Below are positions 14,090 through 64,000 of a DNA stretch of 64,000 bases, in pieces. The DNA lies in NCBI RefSeq assembly GCF_963675165.1, contig NC_087377.1, forward strand, positions 12,448,632-12,512,631, given 5' to 3'. The notes under the pieces were generated by a model. It did no database searches. It had not been told where the DNA came from and worked only from the letters and a program-made list of their open reading frames with translations. The position numbers and the translations under genes are program-made. Each line of letters opens with the position of its first letter. The stretch's first letter is position 1. Source of the DNA: Halichondria panicea. Taxonomy: Eukaryota; Porifera; Demospongiae; Suberitida; Halichondriidae.

Positions 14090-15575
14090 ATGACAGTTCT
14101 TCTGATATGCTTTCTGGCTGGCTCCTCCAGCACTGGTAAGACTGACTAGATTCCTTATAAGCTTACATTGCTGCATGCTTTGTAAAGCCCAATATTCAGT
14201 GAGTGTGGAGAAACCATGTCCAATGGAAACAGTCACTTTCACTTGTATCCTTTCCTCCTTGAGTCTCAATGTACCACTAATGCAGCCAGATTGCAGTTGA
14301 TAACACTACTTTAACATCTACTCTGTCTAGAACAGCAGAGAATGGAATCACTGTGTCCTGTATGGGGTTTGTGCCTGTAAGCACTATAGGGTCTTCAACA
14401 GTTCAATTGATTGGTGAGTTGCAATTAGTATCTTGTCTATTGTCTGTATATACACTAAGTTACATAGATCCACCAGGACCACCATCCACCATAAGACACT
14501 CCACTCCGAGTAGCTTAGCCAATGAAGTCAGTGTATCTGTACAATGGGACCCTCCTACTGAGACTGGTGGTAGAGATGACCTCACCTACACAGTGACCAT
14601 CTCACCTCCGGCCCAGCTCTCTGCTACTGTCCTCACATCTACCTCTGTCACTGTGACTGCTCAATACAATGTGGACTACACTGTCAGTGTTGTGGCTACC
14701 AACTGTGCTGGGAGCAGTACAACTGTTGTGTACAACTTTAGGATTGGTGCGTCGACATCGTTTAAACAGCACATGCACTACACTGACTCCCTCTTGTGCA
14801 GGTGGCTGTCCTGTGTTGACTAACCCCCATAAATGGAGCATTTGGACCAACCACCAGCAGATTATCAGGATCCACGGTAACTATCCAGTGTGACGCTGGA
14901 TATGTATCTGCTGTTACAATGGTGATATGTGAGGGTACACTGATGTGGAGTACACACCCTGAGGCTATTGAGTATACATCACTAACCACACCTACTCCCA
15001 CAACTCGTGAGTTAAGTTCTTGATTGTAGGAATTAAATACAAAATATCTATGTTAATCATTACACAACTCCTCCAATAAACTGCACAGCTTCACTATCCC
15101 CACCACCACGGAATGGCACCATCACTATTCCCGGCACACAAGTTACCCTCCATTGTGACGATGAACTGTTCCCTGAGGGAATAATGGCTGCTACCTGTCT
15201 AGCTACAGGAAAGTGGGACGAGGAGATTGTCTGCAGAGGCAAGCGTATTCGAATACACTTGTAATCATGTTCTCTCTTGAACCACCTACAGCTGCTCCTT
15301 GTAATTGTGCCAGCCTATCTGATGGGAGTCGATTTGATGCAGCTGTCTCCATCAGCGTTGTTGTCACGGCAGTTGCGTTCACAATCATTGGATTGTTGAT
15401 GGGACTCTTGATCATGTATTTGCTCATACATAAGAAGGCAGTGTACTCCCCAGCAGCTAAAGGACAAGCTAACGTAGGACCCACTCCACCAGCTGGTCCT
15501 GTTTATGAGGAGGTGTCACCCAAAGAGGAGATTGAACTGAATACTAACCAGGCATATGGACCAGTAGGAGTGTGA
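14090..15575 (+). pseudogene. Broken Ig-FN3-Sushi x2-TM receptor (copy A)
   Basis: The exons are recognisable: signal peptide 14090-14135, Ig 14200-14413, FN3 14468-14756, Sushi 14802-~15005, Sushi ~15068-15238, TM/tail 15292-15575. Several lesions are visible. The Ig exon is 214 nt against 288 in copy F (net loss of 74), giving a frameshift and stop. Sushi 1 has an extra C (AACCCCCATAAATGG), a second frameshift. The last Sushi-1 Cys is Tyr (GAGTATACA for GAGTGTACA). The acceptor before Sushi 2 reads ACACAA instead of ACACAG. The FN3 exon and the TM/tail exon are still open, the tail keeping PVYEEVSPKEEIELN and QAYGPVGV. A truncated product from an internal start cannot be excluded. Confidence 0.75.
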
Positions 15576-15837
15576 AACATGCGTTAATGTGCATGCTCAT
15601 GACGATTTTAACAACTGTAAACAGCAACATCTGTTCATTAAAAGCCACTACATCTTTTGAAAAAGCTATATTAAACGAGTGGTGCGCTGTGCTATAATGC
15701 CTCTCGCCATGTTTAGCTTCGCTAAAAAAGTAGAGTGTTATAATAATAAGCAAACTAATACTTCTTCTTTATAATAGTTAGACAGTGTCTAAAATCATAT
15801 AATACGATTGTATTAGTTTGCTTTGTATACTGTTATG

Positions 15838-16175
15838 TTATTACTATGCCTCGGTGAAGCAAGGTATACGGTAGTGTGCATGTGTGTGTGTGTGTCTTGT
15901 GTAGACTGCTACAGCTGCTTAAGGATAAATGGAGTGCAAGTAAGAGTCTATAGGCTTCTGGTAACATTTTCTTGGATTTTGATTCGTGGATTTTCGTTCT
16001 CAAGTTATGCCTGGTTTTGCTTACTGGGAATGCCATTGCAGCCTTTTCAGAAGAGTGCGTAGCAAAACTTGTCCGTGGAGTGTTGCTACTCTACTTAGTA
16101 GTTAGCTCTGCGCTAGAACGCTAGCTATTGGTAGCTGCAAGAGTAAGAAGAGAGCTGCAATTAAGGCTCTACATG
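15838..16175 (-). repeat. Dispersed ~330-bp repeat, copy 3 (reverse)
   Basis: Reverse-oriented copy with AGAACGCTAGCTATTGGTAG and CATTGCAGCCTTTTCAGAAG. It lies downstream of receptor copy A. Confidence 0.65.
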
Positions 16176-16329
16176 CAGCAGCCATTAATTTAGACTTTGT
16201 ACTTTTGACATTTTTTCTAGCAACAATCATGATTTCCCACTCCCTGAGTTTCCCTGTGTATAGCCAGATGCAAAAATGTTTATCATGATAATCATATCAT
16301 GTGTGTACGTATTAGCAATATTAGCTACC

Positions 16330-16687
16330 CTATTATAAACGGGTACTAATTATATTTTTAGCGAATTTTAGCGAATTTGTAATTAACGCTAAATTAAGTA
16401 CACGCTAATAATAAAACGCAATTAAAAAATTATGAACTCATTAACTTTTTTTTTTCTAATGTACTTTTATATTATAATGTAATGTACTTTTGAGAGTACG
16501 CTATAAGCAAGCTAGCCCTTTTTTCATCTGTATCTGACTCCAAACTTTCCATTCAACCTTAAAACTCATACTTGTATATCTTTTGAGATATATTGTGGTA
16601 ATGAATTTGCTACAAATCCGCCAAAATTAGTACCCTAAAAACAGAGAAAAATCTGAAAATGCTAAAATTACTACCCGTCTATAATAG
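16330..16687. mobile_element. MITE with CTATTATAAACGGGTA termini
   Basis: The left end CTATTATAAACGGGTACTAA is answered by ACTACCCGTCTATAATAG on the right. The interior is very AT-rich and noncoding. A fragment with the same GTACCCGTTTATCGTAA end lies at about 10565-10590. Confidence 0.65.
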
Positions 16688-17845
16688 TAACATTAAGGTA
16701 TAGTAGCTATTAAGGTAGTAGCTTTATATTGACACAGCATCAGCACCCGCGGTACTGTTGTAATTGTTGACAATGAACTACACTGTCATTATAGAAGAAG
16801 GAAACAGAAGTCTATGTGATGGCTTGGTGAACTAGAGCACTGAAGTGCTAACCCTCGGCTACTGACATGAATCTATACAAACCTGAGGAGTGTTACACAA
16901 TACATGCATAATTATTATGTATATTATGTATAAGCATAAAAGCTGGCTAGTAAGCAGCAAGTAACAGGAGCAATAAAATTAAAGGCATGCTGAAACTTTT
17001 GAGAACTGCGTTTTAGTGGTGCATGAGACTTGCACTGTGGACTAGGATCATATCAAAGTCAACACAAAGAAGCCTGGAGTCTTAGAAGTTCTGGGGCTAA
17101 AGAACAAACTATTCTAGCTTTCTACTTTAGGGACCCTGTTCCATTGCTCCTGGTAAAAGATCACTTCAGCTGAAAATACGCACTCAATTAAAGGCTGTTC
17201 ATAATTAATACATGTACACGTGAAAGTGACATCAGGGCTGCATCCAGGATTTTGGGTCAGGGGGGCATATAAAAAGACGCAAAGTCAGTGCATGCCAAAC
17301 TAGGAGGGTCCGGGGGCATGCTCTCCGTAAAAAATTTGATATTTGGGAGCTTATAGATCACTTCTGGCGCAATTTCAGCTCATAATTACGTAGCTATCAT
17401 AAAAATTATAGTACATATATACAGAATATTCCAGATATCATCATTACATGATTGTTGTAAATTATAGTGTTAGGTGCGCAGAATAGCTGTTTAAAACTAA
17501 ACTGACTACCCACCTCAGCTTATATATTATGTCTGTGTCTGGTCCGGCCTATTCCGATTAGCGAGGGTCTACTGTATTAACTTAAAAACAGCCTGTGCGC
17601 CTCCCCATGCACTCTCTATATGCAGTAAACGATATTACCACCTCTGAGGTACTTCTCACACGTAGATCATACAAACTAATTTCTAATATAGGGCTATAAT
17701 TATGCATACATGTATATACAAAGGAATCCTGAATGACACAATATACGACTTACATGCAGTCATCCTATAGGCTCTGAGTTGGTAGCCTAAGTCATGCATA
17801 GCTACGTAGATATTATTCAAAGACTGACATTGGATTGTGTTGTTT
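16688..17845. other. Gene-free stretch
   Basis: No supported gene. About 17230-17345 (GGGCTGCATCCAGGATTTTG) resembles degraded ends of a hAT-like element. Confidence 0.3.
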
Positions 17846-21013: not shown

Positions 21014-23129
21014 ATGAATGTACTCATAATGCAGCTGAAAGTGAATTTACTGTTGATATTCTGCACCAGTGCATACGGAGAGTTGGCGAGTAAGCTCAAA
21101 TAAAGTATTAAGGACAAATACATGCACGCAAAAATCTAAACTATAATTATATGTAATATAGATTGTATACTATAACTGATTAATGCACACAATAGAAATT
21201 GAGGCTCCATTTGTCTACAATGCCTACTTAAACCAGCCGGATAATGGAGTGTTTGTATGTTTGGTAAGAAATGGTGGATCAGCTCGCTGGATAGTAGATG
21301 GACAGCAGGCAGACAGTGTTCCAATACTATCCAGAGAAATTACTGTTACGTATGATCTGAATCAAGTGCCTGGGTACATTACAGCAACCATTACAATTCC
21401 TGCTACTGTTGTTAATTCAAATGGTGTCACCTGCAAATGCAGACGATACACATCTATTGGCTTTGTTGAAGCCTATGAAACAGCTAAGTTTTATGTTCAA
21501 GGTAAATCAGATATATATTCCCGTGCATGATATAGATATTGGTATATAGCTACTAGCTAATACTTCATGAGCTATTCCTCCTATAATATATCACAGGAAT
21601 TCTCCAGATGTCATCAAACTACACAGTAGCACGTTACAATAAATCTCATAACAGAGTGTCTTGGACAGAACCCTTTTCACTAAATATTACTGCTGTCCAG
21701 CAAGATATCTTTGGTTACACAATTTGTACTGACGGTCTGACAGCAATTGAGCAACTACAGTGTATGAACACAACAACAGCAGAGATTATTCTTCCCAAGT
21801 ACTGTGTTGACGTCAATTACTTAACAGTTGGTGCCTGGAATATTGTGGGAGAAAGTAACACAGTTTTATTTGCAGTTGAGCGTGAGACCACAGGTGAAAA
21901 TACTTCACTCTCAGGTAAGTATAAACAGTGCAATGTTTTACACACGCCTGCATGACATGTAAGTTTCACACAATCTACATTCAGAAGCGATTGCTGAAAT
22001 ATCGTTCAGCGGCAACGAAACTGAAATCAACATAATCTTTAATGACTCTGAGGTAAACATATAAATCCTTCATGCATGGTGTCCATAAGATCTCCAAAAA
22101 AATATTTTACAGCTTGAATTGTGTCTTTGTGTATTTCAAGTCACCATTTTTCAACTTACAAGCAACTCAATTGTCTTCAAAGGATTTATATATAGTATCT
22201 ATGAATACTTGACGATAGTGTGTAACCTTCCACACAACGAGACGTTTTTGGCCAATGTTAGCTGTTCTGATAATAAAATTGAGCACTCAAACATTCCTTT
22301 TAGTAAGTTTTCAGATGATGTTGTGCTGCCATAACATAATGACATAATTATAAAAAAAATACTATTTTCAGGTACATACGATATTCAAAACGTAGAAATC
22401 ATTGTGAGAGGAAATAATGTCACTGTCACTTGCTGGTTTGCTAGAGGGACAACTGCTCGTGGCTTTAAGATTGACATTCTGGGCGTTGAAAATCGTTTAG
22501 TGATTTCTATGTTTGTCAGCATAAATGAAACTTGTGTAAAAGGTTGTTCATACAGTGTAGATGTGGAGGTTGGTAATTTCACCACTACTGTTTATAATTG
22601 GGAACAAGATGGTGGTATACGCAGAGTGTACAGTAGAGAGATTGTTATCATAACCCTCAAGTCCAACTCAACAACAGAGAGTACAGTTATTAGAAACATT
22701 ACTGACTTGGACCCCATTACAACAGTACACTGGGGTAATTATACTGTAACTTCAACCATAATCGGTGCAGGTGTTATTGGAGGTTGTTCTGGTGGAGCAG
22801 TTTGCTGCATTATATTCATTACTGTAACATTAGCAGTGTTGTTCAAGAAAAGAAGGAGAAAATCAAAGAAAAGTGAGTAGATTTCCCAAGATAATTACTT
22901 TAATAAGCCATTGCACCATTGCACCACATATACAGCGTTCGAAGTCAGCAACTGTGAAGCATACTCTATTGTATTGAATATGAGAAAAAATGAAGCGTAT
23001 AATGAAATTTGTATTGCCAACCATTCACAAATAATTGCTACGGAGCCACATCTGTATGATGTCATAGAAAATGCTCAAGGATCACCTACACTACCTACAG
23101 AACCTTTGTATGCAGAAATACGTGTATAG
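21014..23129 (+). CDS. Ig/FN3-type receptor with multi-YxxI tail
   Basis: Seven exons: 21014-21089, 21196-21501, 21597-21914, 21985-22052, 22113-22302, 22372-22872, 22936-23129. Phases close, giving 550 aa. Residues 1-21 form a signal peptide (LLLIFCTSAYG). Residues ~26-127 are Ig-like (GVFVCLVRNGG...ARWIVDG...VTCKCRR). Residues 128-233 are FN3-like (NRVSWTEPFSLNI...VGAWNIVGESN). A less clear Cys-containing beta-rich region follows to ~440. The TM (VIGGCSGGAVCCIIFITVTL) is followed by KKRRRKSKKS. The tail of ~70 residues has YSIV, YNEI, YDVI and YAEI. The last three are YxxI, the core of ITIM/ITAM-like SH2-binding sites, although the -2 residues are not canonical. The second exon has a weak pyrimidine tract; its AG at 21194-21195 was chosen because it keeps frame. 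Exons 4 and 5 (68 and 190 nt) are the least certain. Confidence 0.72.
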
Positions 23130-26647: not shown

Positions 26648-28838
26648 ATGTACTTCATTGTTTTAGGTGGTGGTATTATTTGTTGCTACAGTTACAGGAC
26701 TAGTGCTTGGTATAGGTATGTACAATTAATTATCATAGTTGTCCTTAATTTACTTGTTACGTATGATGTTTTTTATAGGTCAGGTGGTTGAAATTGCTTC
26801 AGATTTAGACGCAGCCGGTCGTAACTTTTCCTGCACTGGTGAAGTTGTCACATACACTTGTAGCGCTCAAGGAACCACCCTGTTTGTACAGTTTCCACCA
26901 TTACTAAATCAGCAAGCATTCATTAGCAGTGATCCTGTTCCTGATGTTCAGACATTCCCTACTGCTCTGAATGTTATTCTGACCCTGACAAGTGGAATGC
27001 CCAATTTTACTTCAAACCTGCAAATCAGAGTGTCAAGTGATCTGCAGCAGATGAATTTTTCCTGTTCTACGGACATTTCTGGCCCTCAGAACGATTTTGT
27101 ACTAACACTAATTCATGAAGGTAAGTTGTCATGCCGTATATATAGCGGGTAACTTTCGTTGGTGAAAATTTCGTATGAGTGAAATATTTCGTATAGGCTA
27201 AATATTTGTACAGCTCAGAATAGTGACATAGAACCTACGAAAATGTCCACCATACGAAAATATCCCGCTATAATTATATGATTATCCTTTTATATACAGC
27301 ACAAATCGAGCCACCTTCCACTGTGACATTCTCTGGAGACACGACAGTATCATGGACCCCACCTTTGAACCCCCAGTTTGACATTGATTATTATATTGTG
27401 AGAATTTACGTGGATGGAGTGCTGTACACAACTAGGAGCTCTCGTGATAATGGTCTGGACGTTACGTTGCCTTCTGGAGAAATCACTGCTGATGTTCGTA
27501 CTGTTAGCACTTGTGGTAGCATTAGCGCTGCACAACAGTCAGTGGGATCAATCTCAGGAGGATGTGCAAATGAATCAGTCTCTGCTGCAGGTTTGTTTGC
27601 TTCTGAAAAAAAATTATGTTTATGCCCAGCTCACAAAATTGTACGTAATAGTTAGCGCTGAATCAATGCACTCATTTCTTGTACGATAAAATCTATGCTC
27701 TCTCTGTAGCATTTTATGCCGGCTGGATTTTTTGGTTTTTACACTAATTGTTGTTTTCATCATCAAATATACGAACATTTCCACCATACGAAAATAACCT
27801 GCTATAATTATATATACAGTATATCCTTTCATGTACAGCAAAAATTGAACCACTGTGACATTTTCCGGAGACATGACAGTATCATGGATCCCTCCTTTGA
27901 ATCCCCAGTTTGACATTAATTATTATATTGTGAGAATGTACGTGGATGGAGTGTTGTACACGACTAGGAGCTCTCGTGATAATGGTCTGGACGTTAAGTT
28001 ACCATCTGGAGAAATCACTGCTGATGTTCGTACTGTTAGCACTTGTGGCAGCATTAGCGCTGCACAAAAGTCAGTGGGATCAATCTCAGGAGGATGTGTA
28101 AATGAATCAGTCTCTGCTGCAGGTTTTGTTTGCTTCTAAAAAAAAATTATGTCTATGCCCAGCTCACAAACTTGTACGTAATAGTTAGCGCTGAATCAAT
28201 GCACTTATTTCTTGTACGATAAAATCTATGCTCTCTCTGTAGCATTTTATGCCGGCTGGTTTTTACACTAATTAAATTTTTTGTTTTCATCATCAAAAAT
28301 ACAAACATTTCCACCATACGAAAATAACCTGCTATAATTATATATACAGTATATCCTTTCATGTACAGCAAAAATTGAACCACCTCTCACTATGACATTT
28401 TCCGGAGACACGACAGTATCATGGATCCCTCCTTTGAATCCCCAGTTTGACATTAATTATTATATTGTGAGAATTTACGTGGATGGAGTGTTGTACACAA
28501 CTAGGAGCTCTCGTGACAATGGTCTGGACGTTAAGTTACCATCTGGAGAAATCACTGCTGATGTTCGTACTGTTAGCACTTGTGGCAGCATTAGCGCTGC
28601 ACAACAGTCAGTGGGATCAGTCTCAGGAGGATGTGCAAATGGATCAGTCTCTGTTGCAGGTTTGTTTGCTTTTGATATATCTATGCCTAGCTCACAAAAT
28701 TGTACGTAATAGTTAGCACTGAATCAATGCACTCATTTCTTGTACGATAAGAGTATAAAAAATTATGCTCTCTCTGTAGCTGGCTTTTTGGTTAGCACAC
28801 TAATTGTTGTTTTCATCACCATCGCTGTTATCGTATAG
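26648..28838 (+). CDS. Ig + tandem FN3 receptor ending in a tail-less TM
   Basis: Exons: leader (start unresolved, near 26648-26709), Ig 26779-27120, FN3-1 27300-27590, FN3-2 27839-28122, FN3-3 28369-28659, TM 28780-28838. The Ig exon has FSCTGEVVTYTCSAQG...MNFSCSTD. FN3-1 and FN3-3 are 291 nt, phase 1-1, and near identical (TVSW, NPQFDI, YYIVR, VDGVLYTTRSSRDNGLD, CGSISAAQ). FN3-2 is 284 nt: a 7-nt loss near its start (GAACCACTGTGAC) creates a stop. It would have to be skipped, which its symmetric phases allow. The last exon encodes AGFLVSTLIVVFITIAVIV and stops at once, so the product lacks a cytoplasmic tail. The leader has an in-phase hydrophobic segment at 26667-26709 (VVVLFVATVTGLVL) but its ATG is unclear. 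Confidence 0.55.
27140..27285. mobile_element. MITE remnant in an intron (GCGGGTAA type)
   Basis: CCGTATATATAGCGGGTAAC on the left and CGAAAATATCCCGCTATAAT on the right, with GAAATATTTCGTA inside. Its right end was carried along in the tandem FN3 duplication. Confidence 0.6.
27300..28838 (+). repeat. Three tandem ~535-bp units (FN3 exon + TM exon)
   Basis: Each unit holds an FN3 exon, a GCTCTCTCTGTAG acceptor with a TM exon or its relic (27708, 28243, 28780), and before the next unit a MITE remnant (CACCATACGAAAATA). Spacing is 539 and 530 bp. In units 1 and 2 the TM exon is degraded (GCATTTTATGCCGGCTGG then a TAA). Only unit 3 keeps a full helix. Confidence 0.8.
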
Positions 28839-34049: not shown

Positions 34050-35937
34050 ATGCAGCTACAAACAGTTATTATTTACAGCACCCAGTTGTTCGTACTGGCT
34101 GCAGGTGAGTGTTGCATGTGTGCATGTGGCATATAGCTATATAAAACTTGATTTAGCTATACATTTATATTTTTGCAGCCACTCTGACATCCACTCCCAC
34201 TGTGTCCTGTCCTGGTGACACTGTCACCTTTACCTGCACTCTACCTGGTAGTCTCATACGATGGAAAGTCACTCCTCCAACGGTTCAAGGAGCTTCGTTT
34301 AGATTGACTTTAATATTCACCGGCAGTGTAAATGTCGCTGTGACTGAGGGTAATCCAGCATTCCGTGGTGTTCTCACTGATTCCAGTGGAGGAATGCTCA
34401 CTGCCACTCTAACCTCACTGTCTGAGGCCTCAACTGTGGAGGGATTTATGGTGGAGTGTGAGGGAGCAAGCTCACAAGAGGGTCCCCTCACTATCACTAT
34501 GGCTGGTGAGTGGCTGGTGGAGTGCATACATGCCATGTACACGTGCATTCTCAGTTTATCAATACACTCATGCACAGATTCACCCTCCCCTCCACTTAAT
34601 CCAAGGGTGTCCTCCTCAGCCCAAAACCAACTCAGCTCCTCTATTATCACTCTGGAGTGGGACCCTCCCTCCTCTACTGGTGGTGTGTCTGTCAGCTATG
34701 TCCTCATCATCTCCCTAAAACCTCTCTCCAAGTCACCAGTCACCGTGGAGACCACCTCAGCACAGATAACTGTCTCCTACAACACTCCCTACAATGTGAC
34801 AATCAGAGCTGTCAACTGTGCTGGAATGAGTGACGATGATGTGATGATGATGATTCTTCCTATTGGTTAGTTTCTATTAGCTGATCTCTTAGTGTATAAT
34901 ATTGTTTGCTACAGTTACCTGCCCCTCCAACCCAACACCTGCAAATAGAGTGACCATCAATGGTGCTCCACCACTGCCTGCACTAGTAGGATCAACACTG
35001 AGCTTCACTTGCAATGGAGAGACAGTACCAGCAACCTGTGAGAATGATGGGCGGTGGTTACCTGATCCTACCAGTTACCTCTGTCCCTCGGGTAAAATTA
35101 TTGGTGAATCACTGTCATGATTGTTACTATATAGCCCCTCCTCTCAGATGTCACCTGTGGCTTTCCTGTCGCACCTTCCAGAGGCAGTGTGGACGTTAAG
35201 GGTCGGACATTGCCCTTTTCGATAGACTCAGTGGTAAACTTATATTGTGACAAAGGACTATTCCCAGCTGGTGATATGTCCAGTACGTGTGAAAATGTGG
35301 GTGGAGTAGGAACTTGGAAGCCGGACACGAACATCACATGCAGAGATATGCCTGGTGAGAATGCCATTGGCTAAACTTGTTGCGTGTATTATTAACATCT
35401 AATTTACGTTTCACCGCAGTCAACTGCTCTCTACCCAAAAAGCCATCCAACGGAACAATAGTGAACTATGAGAGTTTGAATGAGACAGTATCGGAGGGAA
35501 CAGTGCTGACTTACCAGTGTGACAATGGACTCTCACTGACTGGACCCAACACCATCACTTGCACTAATGCTGGTGTCTGGAGTACTGAGCCTGAGGCAAT
35601 CGTGTGTGTACTTGAATGTGAGTAGCGCTTTGTTAACGGTTGATTTCCTTGTTTACCTTCTCCATGCATAGATGATATTTCCGCCACCTTATCCACTGGT
35701 GCTGCTATCGTTATAAGTGTGATCATCACTTTCATTGTGACTCTAGTCACTGGATTCCTCACTGGACTCTTAGTGATGCACCTTTGCTCCCGTAAGAAGG
35801 CAGCTGAAGGACAAGCTAACGTAGGACCCACTGTACCAGCTGGTCCTGTTTATGAGGAGGTGTCACCCAAAATGGAAATTAAACTGAACAGTAACCAAGC
35901 ATATGAACGGTCAACCAGTGTATACGTAGGACTGTGA
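34050..35937 (+). CDS. Intact Ig-FN3-Sushi x3-TM receptor (copy B)
   Basis: Seven phase-1 exons: 34050-34104, 34179-34505, 34578-34865, 34915-35091, 35148-35354, 35420-35617, 35672-35937, totalling 505 aa. The ATG at 34050 is preferred to 34036 because it gives a signal peptide (MQLQTVIIYSTQLFVLAAG) matching copy D. Ig spans ~19-127 (SCPGDTVTFTC...LIRW...VECEGA). FN3 spans 128-223 (LEWDPPSSTGG, YNVTIRAVNCAG). Sushi domains at 224-282, 283-351 and 352-417 each have four Cys. The TM is ~428-455. The tail of ~50 residues has PVYEEVSPKMEIKLN and NQAY but ends ERSTSVYVGL instead of GPVGL, adding a tyrosine. Expected at the cell surface. Ligand unknown. Confidence 0.85.
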
Positions 35938-37340: not shown

Positions 37341-39171
37341 ATGATGGTGAACTTGTTAGTGATCAACTTCAAGTATCTTCTGTTAGTAGTATTGATTAGC
37401 TCTCAGATGGGAGGTATGAATAACAAGCTAGGTGTATTTTGATGTTTGAATGAACCTGTTCCATTTCAACACAGAGGCCTCTCAGACTCTAGTGTCCAAT
37501 ACGAGTGTGGTGTGTCCTGGAGAGAGTATCCACTCTCATCAACCTCAGTGAAGTATCTGTACTGGATGGTAGCAATGTCACCTGTTCTATTTTCGATTCA
37601 AATGGTACTGATGTTGAACTACAGACAATAATGGTTGCTGGTGAGTAGCTGTTATTATCTTTATTATCAATCTAGCACTGCTTATGTTTACACACAGGTA
37701 ATTCAACCTCTCCATTAAACCCAAGAATATCCTCCTCTCTAAATCAACCCAGCTCATCCATTGTCATTCTGGACTGGGACACTCCCTCCTATACTGGTGG
37801 TGTGTCCGCCAGGTATGTCCTCATCATCACCCCAACACCTCTCTCTGGGTCACCAGTCACCGTGGAGACCACCTCAGTACAGATAACCATCTCCTACAAC
37901 ACACCCTACAATGTGACCATCAGAGCTGTCAACTGTGTTGGAATGAGTGAAACTAGAATTGTGAATCTGGGTAAGTTAATAAGAATTTATACATTGTTTA
38001 TATTCCTTCTCTGTAATACAGTGGTGTGCTCCACACCGTCTATACTTCTGCTGGTGTGACCATCACCAACACACCTCCTGTCACTATTGGTGGATCCATG
38101 CTCATTTTCACTTGTAGTGGAGACAATGAAGTGAGAACCTCAACCTGTGGCAGTAGCGGGTGGTCTCCTGACCCTGGGACCTTTGACTGTGGCATCCCAC
38201 AGCCAGTTACAGGTATCACACATGCATGGGCAATTAACTCTCTAAAAGGAATGTTGATCTCATGCATTAGATCCCCAAGTCAGCTGTGGTTCTCCTGCTG
38301 CACTGTCTAGAGGTAGTGTGGATATCAGTGGTGGGACATCACCCTTCTCACTGGGTTCACTGGTTAGCTATCGTTGTGACAAGGGACTATTCCCCCCTGA
38401 TGTGAGGACCAGCACATGCACTGATGTGGGGGGTAGGGGAGAGTGGGTGGACAATCCTGGGAGCTTGAGGTGTAGGGAGAGGCCAGGTAAAACGTAGCTG
38501 TTTAGAGGCAATTTTTTGATTTCCTTCGAAAAAGTTCATTCTATAGACGTGCAATTGTATTAGTTTACGTACACCGCCTTTGTTCCACATTTCTAAGTAT
38601 TCAATGGCAGGCTATTGAGTGCTCGTAATACAAACATATCATTTTCTGACCGTCCATATAGTCAACTGCTCTCTTCCTGCTGAGCCCTGCAACGGTGCTA
38701 TAGTGGACTATGAGAGATTGAACAACACAGTGTTGGAGGGAACAGTGCTGACTTACCAGTGTGACAATGGACTCTCACTGACTGGACTCAACACCATCAC
38801 TTGCACTAATACTAGAGTCTGGAGCACTGAGCCTGAAACAATCATGTGTGTGCCTAGGACTGAAGGTCAGTAATTGTTTGCTATTCCAAAAATACATGCA
38901 GTCATACTATCCCCTCTCACAGTTTCTACTGTCGCTATCAGTGTGGTCATCACTTTCATTGTCACTCTAGTCATTGGATTCCTCACTGGACTCCTAGTGA
39001 TGCATGTTTTCTCTCGTAAGAAGGCAGTATACTTCCCGGCAACTGCATGAAGGACAAGCTAACGTAGGACCCACTGCACTAGTTGGTCCTGTTTATGAGG
39101 AGGTACCAGTATCACCCAAAGAGGAGATTGAACTCAACACAAACCAGGCGTATGGACCGTTAGGACTGTAA
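37341..39171 (+). pseudogene. Broken Ig-FN3-Sushi x3-TM receptor (copy C)
   Basis: Exons: 37341-37413, 37475-37640, 37698-37970, 38022-38212, 38280-38486, 38662-38865, 38923-39171. The signal peptide, FN3, Sushi 2, Sushi 3 and TM are open. The Ig exon has lost most of its middle (166 nt against ~310-330 in B and D) and hits TGA. Sushi 1 has two extra bases (CCGTCTATACTTCTGCTGG) and a frameshift. The tail exon has a 4-base insertion (ACTGCATGAAGGACA) giving TGA just after the TM, and a later six-base insertion before TCACCC. The acceptor of Sushi 2 is CCCAAG. At least three independent lesions make a full receptor impossible. Confidence 0.8.
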
Positions 39172-40479: not shown

Positions 40480-40935
40480 ATGGTGAACTTGTTGATCAAG
40501 CATCTTCTGTTAGCAGTGATGATTGGCTCTCAGATAGGAGGTATGAATGCAAAACAAGATATATTGTGTTTCATGTGTGATTGAAGCTGTTCTACTACAG
40601 AGGCCTCATTAGCGTCCAACACGAGTGTGGCGTGTCCTGCATGGAGATGCAGTTCTGCTCACATGCTCTAAGCCTGCCCTGCATTGATATGGCAAGTGGA
40701 TCCTCCAGCGATGTCTGGGTTGATGTCAGTTCAAAGTACATTCTTTATTGGTTCTCAAGTTGGTCGAAGGAGGGACACATTAGGATCAGGAGTGATCATG
40801 CTTGAGGCTGTTCTTGTAAGCAATGATGGTGGAACTCTGACGTCCACCCTAATCAACCTCAGTGAAGTGTCTGTACTGGAAGGAACCAATAATTTTATTA
40901 CCTGTACTATACATTTATATAGATCTAGTTGTGTA
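40480..40935 (+). pseudogene. 5' remnant of a C-type receptor (signal peptide + Ig)
   Basis: The signal-peptide exon 40480-40540 (MVNLLIKHLLLAVMIGSQIG) ends in a proper phase-1 donor. The Ig exon from 40601 begins EASLASNTSVACP, then a small indel gives a stop. The rest of the Ig exon is recognisable to about 40935 (TLINLSEVSVLEGTN in another frame). No FN3 or Sushi of its own follows. Copy D begins 146 bp later with a different signal peptide. Confidence 0.65.
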
Positions 40936-41081
40936 TAAAATTATGGTTGACTTCTTCAACATTCTGATGTGGTTTTTCTGACTTCCTCAATAGAGGGTGT
41001 GTTAATTCAATCATAGGTGATCAATAAACTTAATTGTTGTTGTTGTACCAGCTAGTTATATATATATATATAGCTCCTGTA

Positions 41082-43067
41082 ATGCAAGTACAGGCAGTTA
41101 TTATCAGCATCCAGCTGTTTAGTCTTGCTGCAGGTAAGTTATATACATAGATCATCATCTATGTGTTCACTGGAACACACAATTTGTTTCAGCCACACTG
41201 ATATCCACTCCCCCTGTGGCCTGTCCTGATGACACTGTCACCTTCACCTGCACTCTGCCTGGTAGTCTCATACGATGGACAGTGACTCCTCCACAAGGCC
41301 AAATGTTCCTTGTCACTTTGAGTACCAGTAACACTGAGGACACACAAGGTAATCCAGCATTCCGTGGTGTTCTCACTGACTCCAGTGGAGGAATGCTCAC
41401 TGCCACTCTCACCTCACTGTCTGAGGCCTCCATTGTAGAAGGAACTATGGTGTTGTGTGAGGGAGCAAGCTCACAAGAGGGTCCTCTTACTATCACTGTG
41501 GCTGGTGAATGGATGATGGAATGTATGTAGAGTTATATCTATAGTCAATACACCTACAGATCCACCCAGCCCTCCACTGAACCCAAGAGTGTCCTCCACT
41601 CAAAACCAACCCAGCTCCTCCATTATCACTCTGGAGTGGGACCCTCCCTCCTCTACTGGTGGTGTGTCCGTCATGTATGTCCTCACCATCTCCACAACAC
41701 CTCTCTCCGAGTCACCAGTCACCGTGGAGACAACCTCTGCACAGATCACTGTCCTATATAACATTCCTTACAATGTAACCATCAGAGCTGTCAACTGTGC
41801 TGGAATGAGTCAAGAAAGTCTAATTGTGGATCTTAGTAAGCCATTCCATGGTCGTAATTATTATAACACATGTATGTATATTGTACTCTTTCTTAGTTTT
41901 GTGCCCCACACCGTCTACTGCTGCTGGTGTGACCATGACCAACACACCTCCTGTCACTATTGGTGGATCCATACTCACCTTCACTTGCGGTGGACCCAAT
42001 GAAGTGATAACCTCAACCTGTGGCAATAACGGGTGGTCTCCTGACCCTGGGACCTTCGACTGTGGCACCCCAGTTACAGGTATCATATACACGGGCAATT
42101 AACTCTCCAAAAGGAATGTTGATCTCATGCATTAGATCCCCCATCAGTCACCTGTGGCTCTCCAGCTGCACCGTCTAGAGCCAGTGTGGACATCAGTGGA
42201 GGGACACCACCCTTCTCACTGGGTTCAGAGGTCACCTTCCACTGTGATGAGGGACTGTTCCCCCCTAATTTGAGGACCAGCACATGCACTGATGTGGGGG
42301 GTAGGGGAGAGTGGGTGGAGAATCCCGGGAGCTTGGTGTGCAGGGAGAGGCCAGGTGAAATGTAGTTGTTTAGAAGCTTGATTTTGCCGTCAAAAAAAGT
42401 TTATGTGACTGCATGATATGTGTACAATTGTACCGCCTTTGTTCCACATTTCTTAGTATTCTGCAATTATGGCAGGTCATTGGGTGCTCATGTTGAGCTG
42501 ATGAGATACAAAGATGTATATTCACAGTTATTTTCTGACCGTCCCTATATAATTATAGCCAACTGCACTGTACCTGCTGAGCCGTGCAACAGTGCTATAG
42601 TGGACTATGAGAGGTTGAACGAGACAGTGTCGGAGGGAACAGTGCTGACTTACCAGTGTGACAATGGATTCTCACTGACTAGACCCAACACCATCACTTG
42701 TACTAATGCTAGAGTCTGGAGCACTGAGCCTGAGGCAATCATGTGTGTAGGTCAGTAATTGTTTGCTATCCCAAAATTAATACAGTCATATCTCACAGTT
42801 TCTACTGTCGCTCCCTTGTTCTCCACTTCTGCAACTGTCGCTATCAGTGTGGTCATCACTTTCATTGTCACTCTAGTCATTGGATTCCTCACTGGACTGC
42901 TAGTGATGTATCTTTTCTTTCGAAAGAAAGCAGTGTACTTCCCAGCAACTGAAGGACAAACTAACACAGCGTCCACTGCACCAGCTGGTCCTGTTTATGA
43001 GGAGGTGTCACCCAAAGAGGAGATTGAACTCAACACAAACCAGGCGTATGGACCATTAGGACTGTGA
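41082..43067 (+). CDS. Intact Ig-FN3-Sushi x3-TM receptor (copy D)
   Basis: Seven phase-1 exons: 41082-41133, 41193-41504, 41560-41835, 41897-42079, 42148-42354, 42559-42750, 42799-43067, totalling 496 aa. The signal peptide is MQVQAVIISIQLFSLAAG. Ig spans 18-121 (ACPDDTVTFTC, LIRWTV, VLCEGAS). FN3 spans 122-213. Sushi domains at 214-274, 275-343 and 344-407 each have four Cys. The TM (VAISVVITFIVTLVIGFLTG...) is followed by FRKKAVYF, and the tail has PVYEEVSPKEEIELN and QAYGPLGL. It is closest to B in Ig and FN3 but closest to C in Sushi 1-3 and the tail, which suggests exchange between neighbours. Likely a cell-surface receptor with phosphotyrosine signalling. Ligand unknown. Confidence 0.85.
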
Positions 43068-47777: not shown

Positions 47778-49197
47778 ATGACACTAATAGAGATAGAGCT
47801 CATTAGAGTTCTTCTGATTTGCTTTCTGGCTGGCTTCAGCACTGGTAAGACTGACTATTCAATTTCCTTACATTGCTGCATGTCGATTATAGATTTCCTT
47901 ACATTGCTGCATGTTTCATAAAGCACAATATTCAGTGAGTGTGGAGAGACCATGTCCAATGGAAACAGTCACTTTCACCTGCACTGCTGCTGGAGATTCC
48001 TTGGTATGGGTACTGTCAGATGTAACTCACACAATCACTATCCGCTCCACCTCTGGTCTCAATGTACCCAATGTTGTATCAGGTTACACTGTGACACTGA
48101 TTGCATTCAACGACACTACATTAACATCTACTCTGTCAAGAACAGCAGAGAATGGGATCACTGTGTCTTTAACAACTATAGGATCTTCAACGATCCTATT
48201 GGTGGGTGAGTTATTGCAGTTAGTGTCTCGTCTATTGTCTGTATACAATAAGTTACATAGATCCACCAGGACCCCTGTCCACCATCAGACACTCCATTCT
48301 GAGTAGCTCAGCCTTTGGAGTTAGTGTATCTGTACAGTGGGACTCTCCTATTGAGACTGGTGGTAGAGATGACCTCACCTACATAGTGACCATATCACCT
48401 CTGGCCCAGCTCTCTGCTACTGTCCTCACATCCACCTCTGCCACTGTGACTGCTCAATACAATGTGGACTACACTGTCAGTGTTGTGGCTACCAACTGTG
48501 CTGGAAACAGTACAACTGCTGACTACAACTTCAGAGTAGGTGAGTATATATATTTTTTGCACACAGTATCAATTGATCCTCTTAGGCAGCTGTCCTGTGC
48601 TGACCAACCCCATAAATGTAGCCTTTGGACCAACCACCAGCAGATTACCAGGATCAACAGTAATCATCCAGTGTGATGCTGGGTATGTGTCTGCTGTTAC
48701 AATGGTGACATGTGAGGGCAGTACACTGATGTGGAGTCCAGACCCTGACACTATTGAGTGTACATTACTAACCACACCTACTCTCACAACTCGTGAGTTA
48801 AGCTCTTGGCTGTATATAGTTATATAGATATTAATTCTATTACACAGCTCCTCCAATAAACTGCACGGCTCCACTATCCCCACCACTTGAACCACCTACA
48901 GCTGCTCCATGTAATTGTGATTGTAATTGCGCCAGCCTATCTGATGGCAGTCGATTTGATGCAGCTGTCTCCATCAGTGTGGTTGTCACGGCAATTGTAT
49001 TCACGATAATAGGATTATTTGTGGGACTCTTGATAATGAATTTGTTCGTGCATAAAAAGAATGTGTACTCCCCGTCACCTAAAGAGCAAGCTAATGTAGG
49101 ACCCACTGCACCAGCTGGTCCTGTTTATGAGGAGGTGTCACCTAAAGAGGAGATTGAACTGAACACTAACCAGGCGTACGGACCAGTGAGACTGTGA
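47778..49197 (+). CDS. Ig-FN3-Sushi-TM receptor (copy E)
   Basis: Five exons: 47778-47844, 47936-48205, 48261-48539, 48586-48792, 48848-49197. Phase-1 joins, 390 aa. The signal peptide ends FLAGFSTG. Ig spans ~23-112 (CPMETVTFTCTAAGD...SRTAENGITVS). Against copy F, 21 nt are missing after GITVS, removing CVGPLPT and with it the second Ig cysteine. FN3 spans 113-205 (VQWDSPIETGG, VVATNCAGNS). One four-Cys Sushi lies at 206-274. The last exon starts as a Sushi (PPINCTAPLSPP) but is fused through former intron bases (LEPPTA) to a CNCDCNCASL stalk, the TM and the tail (VYSPSPKEQ, PVYEEVSPKEEIELN, QAYGPVRL). An ATTAAA lies about 100 bp after the stop. Confidence 0.8.
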
Positions 49198-54253: not shown

Positions 54254-54423
54254 TATATAATTACTGATATTATTTATCTAATTCAAGATGCTGTATTTCT
54301 GAGCACAATTGCACAGCATGCTTCGAAAACCATGAGAAAAAAATACCAAAAAAATATAAATTTTAATAAGGCATGTAAGGCCACCCACCGGAGTACTTGT
54401 TTGGTTGTGTATTATTCATGTCT

Positions 54424-55312: not shown

Positions 55313-55393
55313 AAAGGAAGTGAACAAAGAGAAGTTGTCTAGTCAGCAATCACATTGAAATGCAACCTTCTAACTGTCAAGAAATAATTCAAG
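55313..55393 (+). promoter_or_regulatory. Conserved 5' flank of receptor F
   Basis: AAGGAAGTGAACAAAGAGAA, GTTGTCTAGTCAGCAATCAC and ACTGTCAAGAAATAATTC are shared with copies A and E up to the ATG. Confidence 0.5.
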
Positions 55394-56802
55394 ATGTCAC
55401 TAATAGAGCTCATTGGAGTTCTTCTGATTTGCTTTCTGGCTGGCTTCAGCACTGGTAAGAACTGAGTATTCAATTATAGATTTCCTTACATTGCTGCATT
55501 TTTCGTAAAGCCCAATATTCAGTGAGTGTGGAGAGACCATGTCCAATGGAAACAGTCACTTTCACCTGCACTGCTAATGGAGATTTCTTAAGATGGGAAT
55601 CGTCAGATGTTTCTTTCATCACTATTCGCTCCACCTCTGGTCTCAATGTAGCCAATGTTGTATCAGGTTACACCGTGACACTAATTGCATTCAACGACAC
55701 TACGTTAACGTCTACTCTGTCAAGAACAGCAGAGAATGGGATCACTGTGTCCTGCGTGGGCCCACTGCCTACTCTAACCACTATAGGATCTTCGACAATC
55801 CAATTGGTTGGTGAGTTGCAGTTAGTGTCTCGTCTATTGTCTGCATACACTAAGTTACATAGATCCACCAGGACCACCTTCCACTATCAGACACTCCATT
55901 CTGAGCAGCTCATCCAATGAAGTCAGTGTATCTGTACAGTGGGACCCTCCTACTGAGACTGGTGGTAGAGAAGACCTCACCTACACAGTGACTGTCTCAC
56001 CTCTGGCCCAGCTCTCTGCTACTGTCCTCACATCCACCTCTGTCACTGTGACTGCTCAATACAATATGGACTACACTGTCAGTGTTATGGCTACCAACTG
56101 TGCTGGGAACAGTACAACTGCTGACTACAACTTCAGAGTAGGTGAGTATATATATTTTTTGCACAGTATCAATTGATCCTCTTAGGCGGTTGTCCTGTGC
56201 TGACCAACCCCATAAATGTAGCCTTTGGACCAACCACCAGCAGATTACCAGGATCAACAGTAACCATCCAGTGTGATGCTGGGTATGTGTCTGCTGTTAC
56301 AATGGTGACATGTGAGGGTACACTGATGTGGAGTCCAGACCCTGAGGCTATTGAGTGTACATCACTAACCACACCCACTCCCACAACTCGTAAGTTTAAG
56401 CTCTTGGTTGTATATATAGTAATGGATATTCTTATACAATTCTATTACACAGCCCCTCCAATAAACTGCACGGCTTCACTATCCCCACCACTTGAACCAA
56501 CTACAGCTGCTCCATGTAATTGTAATTGTAATTGCGCCAGCCTATCTGAAGGGAGTCGATTTGATGCAGCTGTCTCCATCAGCGTAGTTGTCACGGCAAT
56601 TGTGTTCACAATAATAGGATTATTTGTGGGACTCTTGATAATGTATTTGTTCATGCATAAGAAGAATGTGTACTCCCCGTCAGCTAAAGAGCAAGCTAAC
56701 GTAGGACCCACTGCACCAGCTGGTCCTGTTTATGAGGAGGTGTCACCCAAAGAGGAGATTGAACTGAATACTAACCAAGCGTACGGACCTGTAGGACTGT
56801 AA
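55394..56802 (+). CDS. Ig-FN3-Sushi-TM receptor (copy F)
   Basis: Five exons: 55394-55454, 55523-55810, 55863-56141, 56186-56389, 56453-56802. 393 aa with all phases consistent. Signal peptide MSLIELIGVLLICFLAGFST. Ig spans 21-116 with both Cys (TFTCTANG, ITVSCVGP) and FLRWE. FN3 spans 117-209 (VQWDPPTETGG, YTVSVMATNCAGN). Sushi spans 210-277. As in E, the second Sushi is lost: its first ~13 residues (PINCTASLSPP) run through former intron sequence into CNCNCNCASL, the TM (VVVTAIVFTIIGLFVGLLIM) and HKKNVYSPS. The tail has PVYEEVSPKEEIELN and QAYGPVGL. The last intron (63 nt) is open in frame, so retention would add 21 residues rather than truncate. An ATTAAA follows about 100 bp after the stop. 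Confidence 0.85.
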
Positions 56803-59976: not shown

Positions 59977-60507
59977 ATAGATAGAGTAGAGAGGGATTGG
60001 AAACGGAAGTGATTCACGTGATGTTTTACAATGAAGTCTACGTAGTGGCTCTGGGACCATCCGTGTATCTCCTCATAACTCCCGCAAAAGCCCGGGAAAC
60101 TTATTGTGTCAAGCATACATCTCAGAGCTACCCCCATTACTGAATCACATGCCCCCTGATAGTAGGTATCAATTGGAAACAAAGAAAATATTATCTCGAT
60201 TGTCGTGAAGTAGCTAGAGGTACACAGAGCGCTTTTTCATGCTTGTGTTCCTATAGTGCCTTTGATATAGCTAAGGCGTTGTAACTAAATAGTGTCCTGT
60301 GTCCCAAATGGCCTCAAGTATTAGAGAAAGTTAATGTTTAGCAGCAGAACTGCTCGTGGACTTTTTTACAGAGAGCAACACAATTCTAATAAATTATTCA
60401 TGTTTAGCCCTCGCGTTAAAAAGTAAGCCTCGATTAAAACCGCGGAGATACACAGATGGTACTTCGAGGGTACTTCCGTTTCCAATCCCTCTTTACTCTA
60501 TCTATGG
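59977..60507. mobile_element. TIR element, ATAGATAGAGTA ends
   Basis: Left ATAGATAGAGTAGAGAGGGA then TTGGAAACGGAAGT. Right ACTTCCGTTTCCAATCCCTC then TTTACTCTATCTATGG. TAAGAC occurs on both flanks, a likely target duplication. A relic of the same family is at 36837-36925. No transposase. Confidence 0.75.
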
Positions 60508-61511
60508 TAAGACCTAACCCTATAACCACTAAAAATCATGTGGTCAATTAAAATGTTTTTTCCAATTACTGAATTCTGTATTGTGGTACCGTAGTTTATG
60601 TAATTAATTACAGCGCCAGTCTAATTGTTGGCCATAATTATACTACCATAATAATTATGTTTTATCATAGATAGAACTATCTATGGGTTTCAGTCTCACA
60701 AAAATAATTATGGCACTGTAATTACATCATATCTCTGTCAGAAGGAACCCCAACCCCGCTGAGTCGGCACTTTAATCGCATTCCTGAGCATTCTTGAGTG
60801 TTTATCTTTCTTGTATAATACGTCTCCTGGTCTAGTCTATGAATCATCTGAGTAGTTCATTGCCAGACTACCTCGATTCCAGGCTGCGAAGAGAAAGGCT
60901 TTCTCTTCGCGGCATGGAATTGAGGCTATTGCTACACTGCACCGTACCTAGCTTCGATCCCAGGCCGCTCTTCCTCGAAGAGGCCTTGTGAAGGAGTCTA
61001 CACCGTGCAATGGCTACTTGCAGGAGACTGGGAACCACTTGACCTTAGCTAAGGTGGATTTATCCAAACTTCTCTTGCAGACTGCTTCAAGTCTAGTTTT
61101 TGTGTCTGTAAGTTTAAAACATATTTTGCAGGGGTCAAATATTTGCCAATTTTAGAGATATAATCAAAAGTCTTGCTCTTGTACTAGCCTCGATATCGTG
61201 TGCGGCTTGTTCTCGAGGTCACCGCACAGCTTGGCTTTGATATTATTATCTCTGCTTCTGAGCAAAATTGGCGAAAATAAAATTTGACCCACCCCTGAAA
61301 AATAGCCATAAATCCTCATTCACACCTCTAGTTTTCTCGGCATGTAGTCCAGTGGAGGCATGGCCCGGCAAGGAGGCCTCAGTTGTAGTGAAGAGATTGT
61401 CTGCATGCTAGTTGGGCGGAGTCCAACCCTCTACGTAGTTGGTAGTTGGGCGTGGCTCGACCGTCCCCTCCCGTCAGGGGACGCTCTATATAGCGCTTCT
61501 TATGTCAAGTT
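60508..61511. other. Gene-free stretch with foldback ends
   Basis: 60869-60928 is a compact hairpin with CCTCGATTCCAGGCTGCGAA and its diverged inverse. Further TAGCCTCGA/TAGCTTCGATCCCAGG ends lie near 60949 and 61186. No gene. Confidence 0.45.
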
Positions 61512-62328
61512 AGATGGGCGTGCCCGTCCCCAGCCATAAAATGGGGGGACGGGTTTCAGTCCTTGTTCTGCCATGCAGCACCAATCAGATTGCAGACTGC
61601 TTACGTAATACATTTCAGCACCAATCAGATTGTATACATGTAGTTCTTACGTAATGCATTCCTTGGCTTAGATAAATAGAACTTTTTATTTGGGCAGGAA
61701 ATGCTGCATCCACAGTGTGGGTTTTAATGCAGGTCCTGTATACTATATAGACATGAACAAAAGACAAGAAAGTAGAAAAATAATGGCTTAGTTGCAGTTG
61801 CATGGAGAACAGTTTGTGTATATACTGTTCTTGAATGCTGGTACTGTTTTTGTTTTCTTGAGTTCTTGAGGAAGCGCATTGTACTTGAGAGCTCCTTGAA
61901 AACTCGGTGGATGGTCTTGGAAGGTGGAGGTTATCTTGTCCACGAGTTGTTACTTGTGCTTGTCTGCTACTGTGTTCAGAGTTCTTTGTGAATAGTTCTT
62001 GCAAGTACTTAGGTGCAGTTTTAATGATGCTGCGGTGGACTTGTACCAGCATAAGCTCTTCTCGACGCTGTTCTAGAGTAGTCCATCGCTACGCAGCGGT
62101 GAACTTGGAATGACCCTCATGCCATAATTCTGGATGCTCTCAACTTGATCTTTGAGCTTGCTGCTTGCTTGCTTCCCAGCTCCTCCCCTTCTCTGCAGCA
62201 AGCTGAGCTCTGTGGTTAGAGGCGCGGTTAATATTAACTCATAGTTAGTACGGGAACATCAGAAGGAATGCTGATAAGGCTGAAACCCGTCCCCCCCTTT
62301 TTATGGCTGGGGACGGGCACGCCCATCT
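61512..62328. mobile_element. TIR element carrying a LINE 3' fragment
   Basis: Left AGATGGGCGTGCCCGTCCCC then AGCCATAAAA and GACGGGTTTCAG. Right is the inverse, ending CACGCCCATCT, so the arms are ~46 bp. TA flanks both sides. Within it on the minus strand lies ALKYNALPQELKKTKTVPAF then KNSIYTNC, with an upstream AP.YLQELF in another frame. That is the usual C-terminal end of non-LTR RT proteins, here frameshifted. Confidence 0.75.
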
Positions 62329-62414
62329 AGATTAAAGTATAGTACAAGTCAAGTCTGAGTGTATTTATACAAAATACCTTCAAGTTACAGTGTAACTTCG
62401 CAAGAGGAGATCTC

Positions 62415-64000
62415 ATGGCTGTTAAGATATGGCATTCTTTTGTCTTCAAAATATTGGTGTATGCTGGTAAGCTAATCTAGTCTCTCTAGACAGTGAATTA
62501 ATAAGTATTCCACTCTCACAGTTATAATACAATGGTTGGTTGCAGGTATACGCTTGGTGCTTGGTGGTCTGACTCGTGACTACACTGAAACCCCCTGTGC
62601 TGGTGATATGATCTCCCTCACTTGTACAGTGCCTGGGGCTTTACTGGAATGGGACGTGCCTGAACCAACGAGGGACATACAACTTGATGCTGGATCTGTA
62701 GTCCCATTCCAACGAAATCAGTACACAATTAACACAGCTGTGTTGACGTTGAATTCCACCAGTTCAATGTTCTCCTCCAGTTTGAGTTTCCCTGCAACGG
62801 ACGGGATCACTATTGGTTGTTTTCCTCTAACAGAGCCAATGATGAGGAACGAACTCACCATACTGACAGCAAGTAAGGTTCTGGGTTCTGTAGAGACATT
62901 ATGACAGGACTATGAACCTTTTCTCTACAGCTGCTCCTTTACAACCGAATGGATTCAGTAACTCAATTTTGAGTACTTTAGCAAACAAAGTTAATGTTTC
63001 TGTTCGTTGGGATCCTCCTAATGGCAGAAATGATATCACCTACACAGTGACTATCTCACCTCCGGCCCAGCTCTCTGCAACTGTCACCTCTGTCACTGTG
63101 ACTGCTCAGTATAATGTGGACTACACTGTCAGTGTTGTGGCTACCAATTGTGCTGGGAACAGTACGGCAGCTGAGTACAACTTTAGGATTGGTGAGTTTT
63201 ATTTTTGACACACAGTGTCAACTCCTCCTCAGGCAATTACTGTCCTGTGTTGACCAACCCCATGAATGGAGTGTTTGGACCAACCACCAACAGTTTGCCA
63301 GGATCCACGATAACCATCCAGTGTGATGCTGGGTATGTGTCTACTGTTACAATGGTGACATGTGAGGGTACACTCATGTGGAGTCCAGACCCTGAGGCTA
63401 TTGAGTGTACATCACTAACCACACATACTCCCACAACTCGTGAGTTAAGCTTGTGGCTGTGTATGGATATATTAATTTTATTTTGTGTTAATTTTTCACA
63501 CAGTCCCCCCTCAAATGAATTGCACAGCTTCACTACCCCCACCACGAAATGGCACCATCAGTGGTCATTCAGTACCAGCTATTCCTGGTACACGAGTGGC
63601 CTTTCAGTGTGACGATGGACTGTTCCCTGAGGGAATAATGACTGTCACCTGTCTAGCTACAGGAGAGTGGGACAGGAACACGGGGGAAATTGTCTGCAGA
63701 GGCAAGCGTATTTATTACTTGCATACACTTGTAATCATAATTATTCTCTCCTGAACCAACTACAGCTGCTCTTTGTAATTGCGCCAGCCTATCTGATAGG
63801 AGTCAATTTGATGCAGCTGTCTCCATCAGTGTGGTTGTCACGGCAGCTCTATTCACAGTCATTGGATTGTTGATGGGACTCTTGATAATGTATTTGCTCA
63901 TGCGTAAGAAGGCAGCGTACTCCCCGTCAGCTGAAGGTCAAGCTAATGTAGGACACACTGTACCAGCTGGTCCTGTTTATGAGGAGGTGTCACCCAAAGA
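62415..64000 (+). CDS. Ig-FN3-Sushi x2-TM receptor (copy G), runs off the window
   Basis: Exons: 62415-62466, 62546-62872, 62931-63191, 63233-63439, 63504-63701, 63766->64000. All are open and in phase. Signal peptide MAVKIWHSFVFKILVYA. The Ig (~18-126: CAGDMISLTCTVPGALLEWD...ITIGCFPL) is unlike those of A, E and F, while FN3, Sushi and tail are close to theirs. FN3 spans 127-213 (VRWDPPNGRND, VVATNCAGNS). Sushi domains span 214-282 and 283-348. The intron after Sushi 2 begins GC (CTGCAGAG|GCAAGC), as in copy A. The TM is followed by RKKAAYSPS, and the tail continues PVYEEVSPK to the edge. This is the only copy with an intact second Sushi of this sub-type. Confidence 0.82.

Follow-up and report, generated by a model that had tools for sequence, protein, structure and literature searches.

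What is a sponge chromosome doing with gene after gene that ends in the same short, tyrosine-bearing tail? The question is raised by a stretch of 64,000 nt from Halichondria panicea, here called the window (C1:12448632-12512631, in a genome of 131.46 Mb and 39 contigs). A preliminary description, made from the sequence alone, had reported seven complete, broken or edge-cut genes with a final exon for a transmembrane (TM) segment and a conserved tail. All seven were seen, every one on the + strand; genes 1 and 3 are broken and gene 7 is cut by the window edge. The tail after the TM exon is close to GPVYEEVSPKEEIELNTNQAYGP[V/L]GL in these genes, with its YEEV motif near positions 15504, 35851, 39094, 42996, 49126, 56731 and 63978. 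Judged by their coding sequence, the genes are best explained as part of a tandemly expanded germline family of type I cell-surface receptors. We put at roughly three in four (0.76) the probability that the family evolves by birth and death and consists of recognition receptors with V domains and one common tyrosine tail.

How large is the family? A degenerate DNA pattern for NQAYGP matched the whole genome 217 times (161 forward, 56 reverse) and its reversed-pattern control 0 times; at least 6 of these signatures come from repeats inside a single tail, and the pattern overlooks variants such as NKAY. The next residue is L in 88, V in 120 and neither in 9. Because some tails repeat the second-tyrosine unit, the gene number is somewhat lower than the signature number and is reasonably put at about 200. 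Of these roughly 200 copies 7 are in the window, and the phenomenon is about 30 times larger than the window. Counting the tail-exon loci had been proposed in the preliminary description; carried out in the source genome, the count contradicts a single-copy locus, the outcome named there as adverse, and bears out the idea of a clustered family. Among the 188 matches listed with their contigs (88 of 88 L, 100 of 120 V), 187 lie in one cluster on C1 at 11.25-14.50 Mb and 1 on C7. A search for the TM segment plus tail, with 150 of 297 candidates scored, placed all of these on C1 at 11.25-14.93 Mb. The Ig exon search (150 of 241 scored) gave 149 matches, 146 on C1, 2 on C6 and 1 on C32, and a further search scored 150 of 280 candidates.

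Some copies stand apart from the rest. The sole tail signature off C1 among the matches listed, G000:C7:3600290, is possibly a dispersed copy or a founder outside the cluster. Relatives of the Ig exon are found beyond the tail cluster at G000:C1:9867606-10425233, G000:C6:2305860, G000:C6:2349653 and G000:C32:2614. Within the cluster, three tail exons with the same translation (L010, L011 and L012, at 12.04, 13.23 and 11.80 Mb of C1) are up to 1.4 Mb apart, and one Ig exon of the window has 97% protein identity to an Ig exon 1.09 Mb away. Such near-identical but distant tail and Ig exons probably reflect large recent segmental duplications.

The genes are built to one plan. Exon profiles made from the window exons were run on the window and on 200 kb of further cluster sequence, fetched as 20 stretches of 10 kb. 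The exon order is regular: signal peptide, immunoglobulin (Ig), fibronectin type III (FN3), mostly 1-3 Sushi, and TM/tail, in genes that follow one another head to tail at intervals of a few kilobases; now and then an additional Ig, FN3 or Sushi match appears. By these window-built profiles, Ig, FN3 and 1-3 Sushi exons precede each of the seven window tails. The modules had been described as differing in sequence and number; this holds for Sushi, which varies in both, within an order of modules that is regular. Blocks were split wherever a gap exceeded 2.6 kb, so some apparent Sushi-Tail blocks may be pieces of stretched genes. This gave 48 blocks, 41 of them tail-bearing; 27 are full-length, 19 of these have a signal exon in addition, and 15 also have all phase-1 junctions. 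About a third of the tail-bearing blocks (14 of 41, the window edge truncating one) do not pass the rules for intactness. Splice junctions recur across blocks. A signal-peptide exon with a GT donor at its end (e.g. MTLIEIIKLIRVLLICFLAGFSTG) lies 63-290 bases upstream of the Ig match in 28 of 41 Ig-bearing blocks, and 16 of the 28 contain CFLAG; the signal-exon rule is a loose one, and of 2000 random stretches of 450 bases from this DNA 143 also passed it. Distances in the Ig, FN3, Sushi and TM modules correlate (r 0.56-0.85), and a check for module shuffling found nearest neighbours concordant across modules in only 4-9 of 27 genes.

What kind of motif does the tail carry? The profiles found 41 tails, 37 of them readable to the first tyrosine and 4 out of frame earlier. 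YEEV is present in 37 of 37, which is a fairer count than a separate 35 of 35 obtained by construction. Complete tails have NQAY in 36 of 36 and GP next in 35 of 36. The two tyrosines, previously given as about 16 residues apart, lie at a distance of 17 in 35 of the 36 tails that are complete and readable. The consensus of the immunoreceptor tyrosine-based inhibitory motif (ITIM) is (S/I/V/L)xYxx(I/V/L), and that of the activating motif (ITAM) is YxxL/I-x6-8(-12)-YxxL/I. At -2 of the first tyrosine the tail has P in 34 of 35 cases and F in 1, and at -2 of the second it has Q in 34 of 35, the 35th row being shifted by an insertion; the arrangement is YEEV-x13-YGP[V/L]. The -2 residues and the tyrosine spacing rule out a canonical ITIM or ITAM, as the preliminary description had held. 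Phosphotyrosine-binding (PTB) domains recognize NPxY, or N at -3 with a hydrophobic residue at -5. The tail, which reads L-N-T-N-Q-A-Y, does not follow this consensus (N at -5 in 33 of 35, H in 1, one row shifted), and the idea of PTB binding at the NQAY site looks weak. Src-family SH2 domains prefer pY-E-E-(I/V), and YEEV would be a sequence of this kind. In two loci an 18-residue module with the second tyrosine is repeated in tandem, three times in L051 (C1:11480051-11480850) and twice in L052 (C1:12272351-12272900), so that the number of putative docking sites differs between genes.

Is the tail uniform due to constraint, or only because the copies are recent? Over 33 tails the 26 codons of the tail core have a non-synonymous divergence (pN) of 0.048 and a synonymous divergence (pS) of 0.237, with pN/pS 0.20 (0.14-0.28); the linker before the core, in the same exon, has pN 0.177 and pS 0.216, with pN/pS 0.82 (0.68-1.01). 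Because synonymous divergence is alike in the two, recent copying fails to explain the contrast. Mean identity is 0.915 in the core and 0.580 in the 90 bases after the stop, and in 462 of 465 pairs conservation is higher in the core. These comparisons support purifying selection on the tail core next to a nearly neutral linker. Recent duplication as the sole reason for tail conservation is ruled out by the core-linker contrast together with the divergent flanks.

At the other end of the protein, the Ig exon required a different approach. Pfam, applied to two joined gene models, recognized Sushi (1.1e-13 and 1.2e-4) and fn3 (7.8e-6, above the cut-off, and 2.1e-4, below it), and the Ig exon escaped it in both; among 46 relatives, weak Ig_2 matches came up in 6 (best E 0.013). 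Because Pfam did not recognize this exon, fold prediction was needed. AlphaFold models of the exon at 41174-41506 (gene 4) and of the gene 6 Ig exon cover both Ig subfamilies and are of V type, with strands A, B, C, C', C'', D, E, F and G in a two-sheet Ig fold around a Cys-Trp-Cys core, and their best matches are the V domains of antibodies and T-cell receptors (TCR). There are 34 Ig exons above 60 bits, of which 28 were assigned to two clades, D and M.

Where, then, does the V domain vary? In clade M (12 intact exons; 2 of 14 copies were dropped as frame-broken) pN/pS is 0.26 (0-0.70) in A-B, 0.96 (0.73-1.34) in C-C'-C'', 0.13 (0.06-0.22) in D-F, 0.78 (0.56-1.06) in the FG loop and 0.40 (0.20-0.62) in G. 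Pooled, the variable segments have 0.90 and the frameworks 0.22, and 0 of 1000 bootstraps reversed this, where the bootstrap resamples genes and not independent lineages. The FG loop is 2 to 13 residues long in the 12 copies. Public assemblies hold relatives at E <= 10 of the tail (279 proteins), the clade D Ig (67) and the clade M Ig (145); in IMG/VR or prokaryote genomes no tail-bearing relatives were confirmed. Alignment A1 took 41 of the 67 clade D matches and A2 112 of 120 listed clade M matches, of 145 found. Across 113 sequences, of which 112 are database proteins, entropy averages 1.44 at positions 24-53 and 84-91 and 0.45 elsewhere in 14-98, a contrast reached by 0 of 84 circular shifts, and the top 15 variable positions all fall within 24-53 and 84-91. 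The entropy test was not blind, because the loop boundaries were fixed after the first looks at variability. Clustering of the database at 90% identity inflates the overall variability but not its position; the local and database samples are not wholly independent. Extracted by pattern, 44 of 68 FG loops read and 87 of 90 C-C'-C'' segments are distinct. Most of the variation falls on C-C'-C'' and the FG loop, on the side that bears the complementarity-determining regions (CDR) in antibodies.

Several points weigh against the reading as recognition receptors. The pN/pS near 1 in the variable segments would fit both diluted diversifying selection and relaxed constraint, and since it is not clearly above 1, positive selection is not proven. 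The D-E loop is moderately variable too, with a mean entropy of 0.96, the highest of any loop outside the chosen segments, and clade D follows the same trend with a weaker contrast. All comparisons are of paralogue with paralogue. The 20 fetched stretches were picked where copies lie close together in the cluster, and the tail-finding profile was seeded with YEEV tails, so that tail copies without the motif may be missed. The Src-family reading of YEEV is itself borrowed from the general preference of those domains. The pairing of a constant signalling exon with variable recognition modules, as first described, is supported in its pattern by a tail core under purifying selection, the V-type Ig and the CDR-like variable sites; recognition and signalling would be the functions of these parts.

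Could the array be something other than a set of recognition receptors? If it were a neutral amplification, a tandem array of mostly non-functional copies whose tails are alike through recent duplication or gene conversion, then the 14 of 41 tail-bearing blocks without an intact module set and the near-identical copies far apart would be in keeping with it. That account is made very improbable by a pN of 0.177 in the linker against 0.048 in the core at similar pS, by flanks that diverge (0.580) around a conserved core (0.915), and by frameworks held at pN/pS 0.22 while loops vary. A family for cell adhesion or cell-type identity, for example a non-immune homophilic sorting code, would suit sponges, which re-sort their cells, and Ig-FN3 ectodomains are typical of adhesion molecules. 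A developmental code would, however, be expected to be more stable than one where about a third of tail blocks fail intactness and the Sushi number varies, and we consider it unlikely.

Microbe sensing is quite possible, if short of an even chance. The V domains would bind surface features of pathogens or symbionts, and the common tail would trigger uptake or defence. Sponges filter and house microbes, and a repertoire that is large, turns over by birth and death, and joins one tail to CDR-like variability is consistent with such a role; V-set partners, on the other hand, are more often host proteins. Partial texts of two papers describe the sponge SRCR and NLR families as expanded too (PMC10855680, PMC12909245). 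Allorecognition proper, for which the cluster would be a histocompatibility locus or part of one, with V domains that bind polymorphic self ligands or each other and decide fusion or rejection, is possible, if somewhat doubtful. The variable C-C'-C'' and FG side is the one commonly used by V-set adhesion and recognition proteins, and the copy number, the broken copies and the near-identical copies wide apart all point the same way. So does an architecture near that of Botryllus FF/FcoR (V-type Ig, Sushi and a YxxI/L/V tail; PMC12065747, in part), although about 200 copies exceed the families as quoted in the available portions of the sources (41 Alr genes, > 37 new FF loci and 53 FcoR loci; PMC11999971, PMC12065747).

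As a birth-and-death family of V-domain receptors, the cluster might work as follows, in the manner of Botryllus FF/FcoR or Hydractinia Alr. The V domain, held out by the FN3-Sushi stalk, would use its C-C'-C'' side and its FG loop to recognize variable ligands. The tail, with YEEV and, 17 residues on, NQAY-GP[V/L], would be phosphorylated and SH2 proteins would dock; because the copies share such a tail, many specificities would feed one output. The cluster would evolve as self/non-self receptor loci do, its copies duplicating in tandem or by segments, diverging and decaying. We tentatively propose, at somewhat less than even odds, that it is a sponge self/non-self locus: one megabase-scale array of about 200 germline V-domain genes with CDR-like faces and one phosphotyrosine output.

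The window genes, all on the + strand, illustrate the range from full to broken. Gene 6 (55394..56802; signal exon 55394, Ig 55516, FN3 55868, Sushi 56182, TM/tail 56566-56799 plus stop) passes every completeness rule applied. Gene 4 (40672..43067) is full by the intactness rules, with Ig exons at 40672 (59 bits) and 41198, FN3 at 41565, Sushi at 41896, 42147 and 42558, and TM/tail 42831-43064 plus stop. Gene 5 (47778..49197) has a signal exon at 47778, Ig 47929, FN3 48266, Sushi 48582 and TM/tail 48961-49194 plus stop; its Ig is without the second Cys and its junctions were found in part. In gene 2 (34184..35937; Ig 34184, FN3 34583, Sushi 34914, 35150 and 35419, TM/tail to 35934 plus stop) ER takes the place of GP after the second tyrosine, and the simple signal-exon rule gave no signal exon. 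Gene 1 (14090..15575) is broken, its Ig at 14193 being split between frames, after a signal-peptide exon at 14090 and before FN3 14473, Sushi 14820 and 15076 and a TM/tail exon at 15339-15572 plus stop. Gene 3 (37514..39171), with a weak Ig (25 bits), FN3 37703 and Sushi 38032, 38279 and 38661, is by its sequence a pseudogene, with a frame break in the tail exon and stops in the TM segment. Gene 7 (62415..64000) has a candidate signal exon of borderline hydrophobicity at 62415, Ig 62572, FN3 62945, Sushi 63238 and 63515, and TM/tail from 63813; the window end cuts the tail, which in the genome (locus L028) runs on to NQAYGPLGQ and then a stop.

Two further features share the + strand. A related block at 26811..28706 has Ig at 26811 and FN3 at 27305, 27849 and 28374, and the profiles found neither Sushi nor tail in it; its three FN3 exons, nearly identical and spaced by about 530 bases, are read as a recent internal FN3 amplification. 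At 21180-23126 lies a different receptor-like gene with, in our reading, two Ig/FN3-like exons, which when joined gave no Pfam match. They are followed by an exon for TM plus KKRRRKSKK and then by a tail rich in YxxI/V (AYNEI, LYDVI, LYAEI). This tail recurs in a second copy at C1:13344997, weak relatives of it occur on C5 and, on C1, at 11.07 and 11.18 Mb, and the gene is possibly from a partner family of the cluster.

Sponges reject foreign tissue. With one chromosomal cluster of V-domain receptors, the question of sponge allorecognition becomes open to mapping tests, and the tail can be used as a probe for a putative downstream SH2 pathway. A true kinship of these V domains with those of vertebrate receptors would make germline V repertoires older than the split between sponges and other animals. 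If the self/non-self reading is true, V-domain repertoires go back to the base of the animal tree and precede rearranging antigen receptors by a long time. In the open-access literature (preprints and subscription journals lay outside our scope) a sponge receptor cluster of such a kind was not found. The available part of one account calls the mechanisms of invertebrate allorecognition a mystery and states that the proteins proposed for the role in sponges, cnidarians and ascidians are not conserved (PMC12065747).

How does the family compare with known systems? Set against antibody and TCR V domains, each copy looked at here has a full germline V exon that includes the G strand, and the sequence relation is not close, with a best E of 3.1e-5 for the clade D profile and 0.0068 for a single sequence in an antibody-rich library. 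KIR and LILR are likewise clustered, copy-variable Ig receptors with short tyrosine tails; unlike the sponge genes they have C2-type Ig and no FN3 or Sushi, and their tails are not uniform but ITIM-bearing or adaptor-linked. Geodia has Ig-like domains at the surface of sponge cells too, but in a receptor tyrosine kinase or in adhesion molecules, and the portions of those accounts at hand mention no array with a common non-catalytic tail.

The Alr genes of Hydractinia, 41 in number, are clustered Ig superfamily genes with V-set and I-set domains, reported ITAM/ITIM motifs in some, and a tie to self/non-self; an FN3 and Sushi stalk, as here, is not mentioned for them in the available parts of the sources (PMC11999971, PMC12065747). 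With the FF/FcoR genes of the Botryllus schlosseri fuhc locus, as far as the partial account goes (PMC12065747), the sponge genes have in common a signal sequence, a V-type Ig, Sushi, a TM segment, a Y-x-x-I/L/V tail and clustering. FcoR has two C2-type Ig before the TM segment, where FN3 and up to three Sushi are found here, and its tails are ITIM, hemITAM or YxxI/L/V core by member, against one tail type in the readable copies here. The sponge array also has more copies and belongs to another phylum. A tunicate host, which the likeness to Botryllus fester would suggest, is unlikely by the gene content of the genome. An Antennapedia homeodomain query matched just 9 places at E <= 1e-4, at 49% identity or less, which goes against a tunicate, any other bilaterian or a cnidarian. 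A silicatein query, in favour of a siliceous sponge, matched exon series on C2 and C6 whose pieces are 42-79% identical, many of them over 60%, along with long single-exon copies at 45-52%, although short pieces may overstate the likeness. A search of the assembly for mitochondrial COI gave no match. Because the C2 Ig pair is missing and FN3 is present, we keep the family apart from FcoR and Alr and compare it with them by description.

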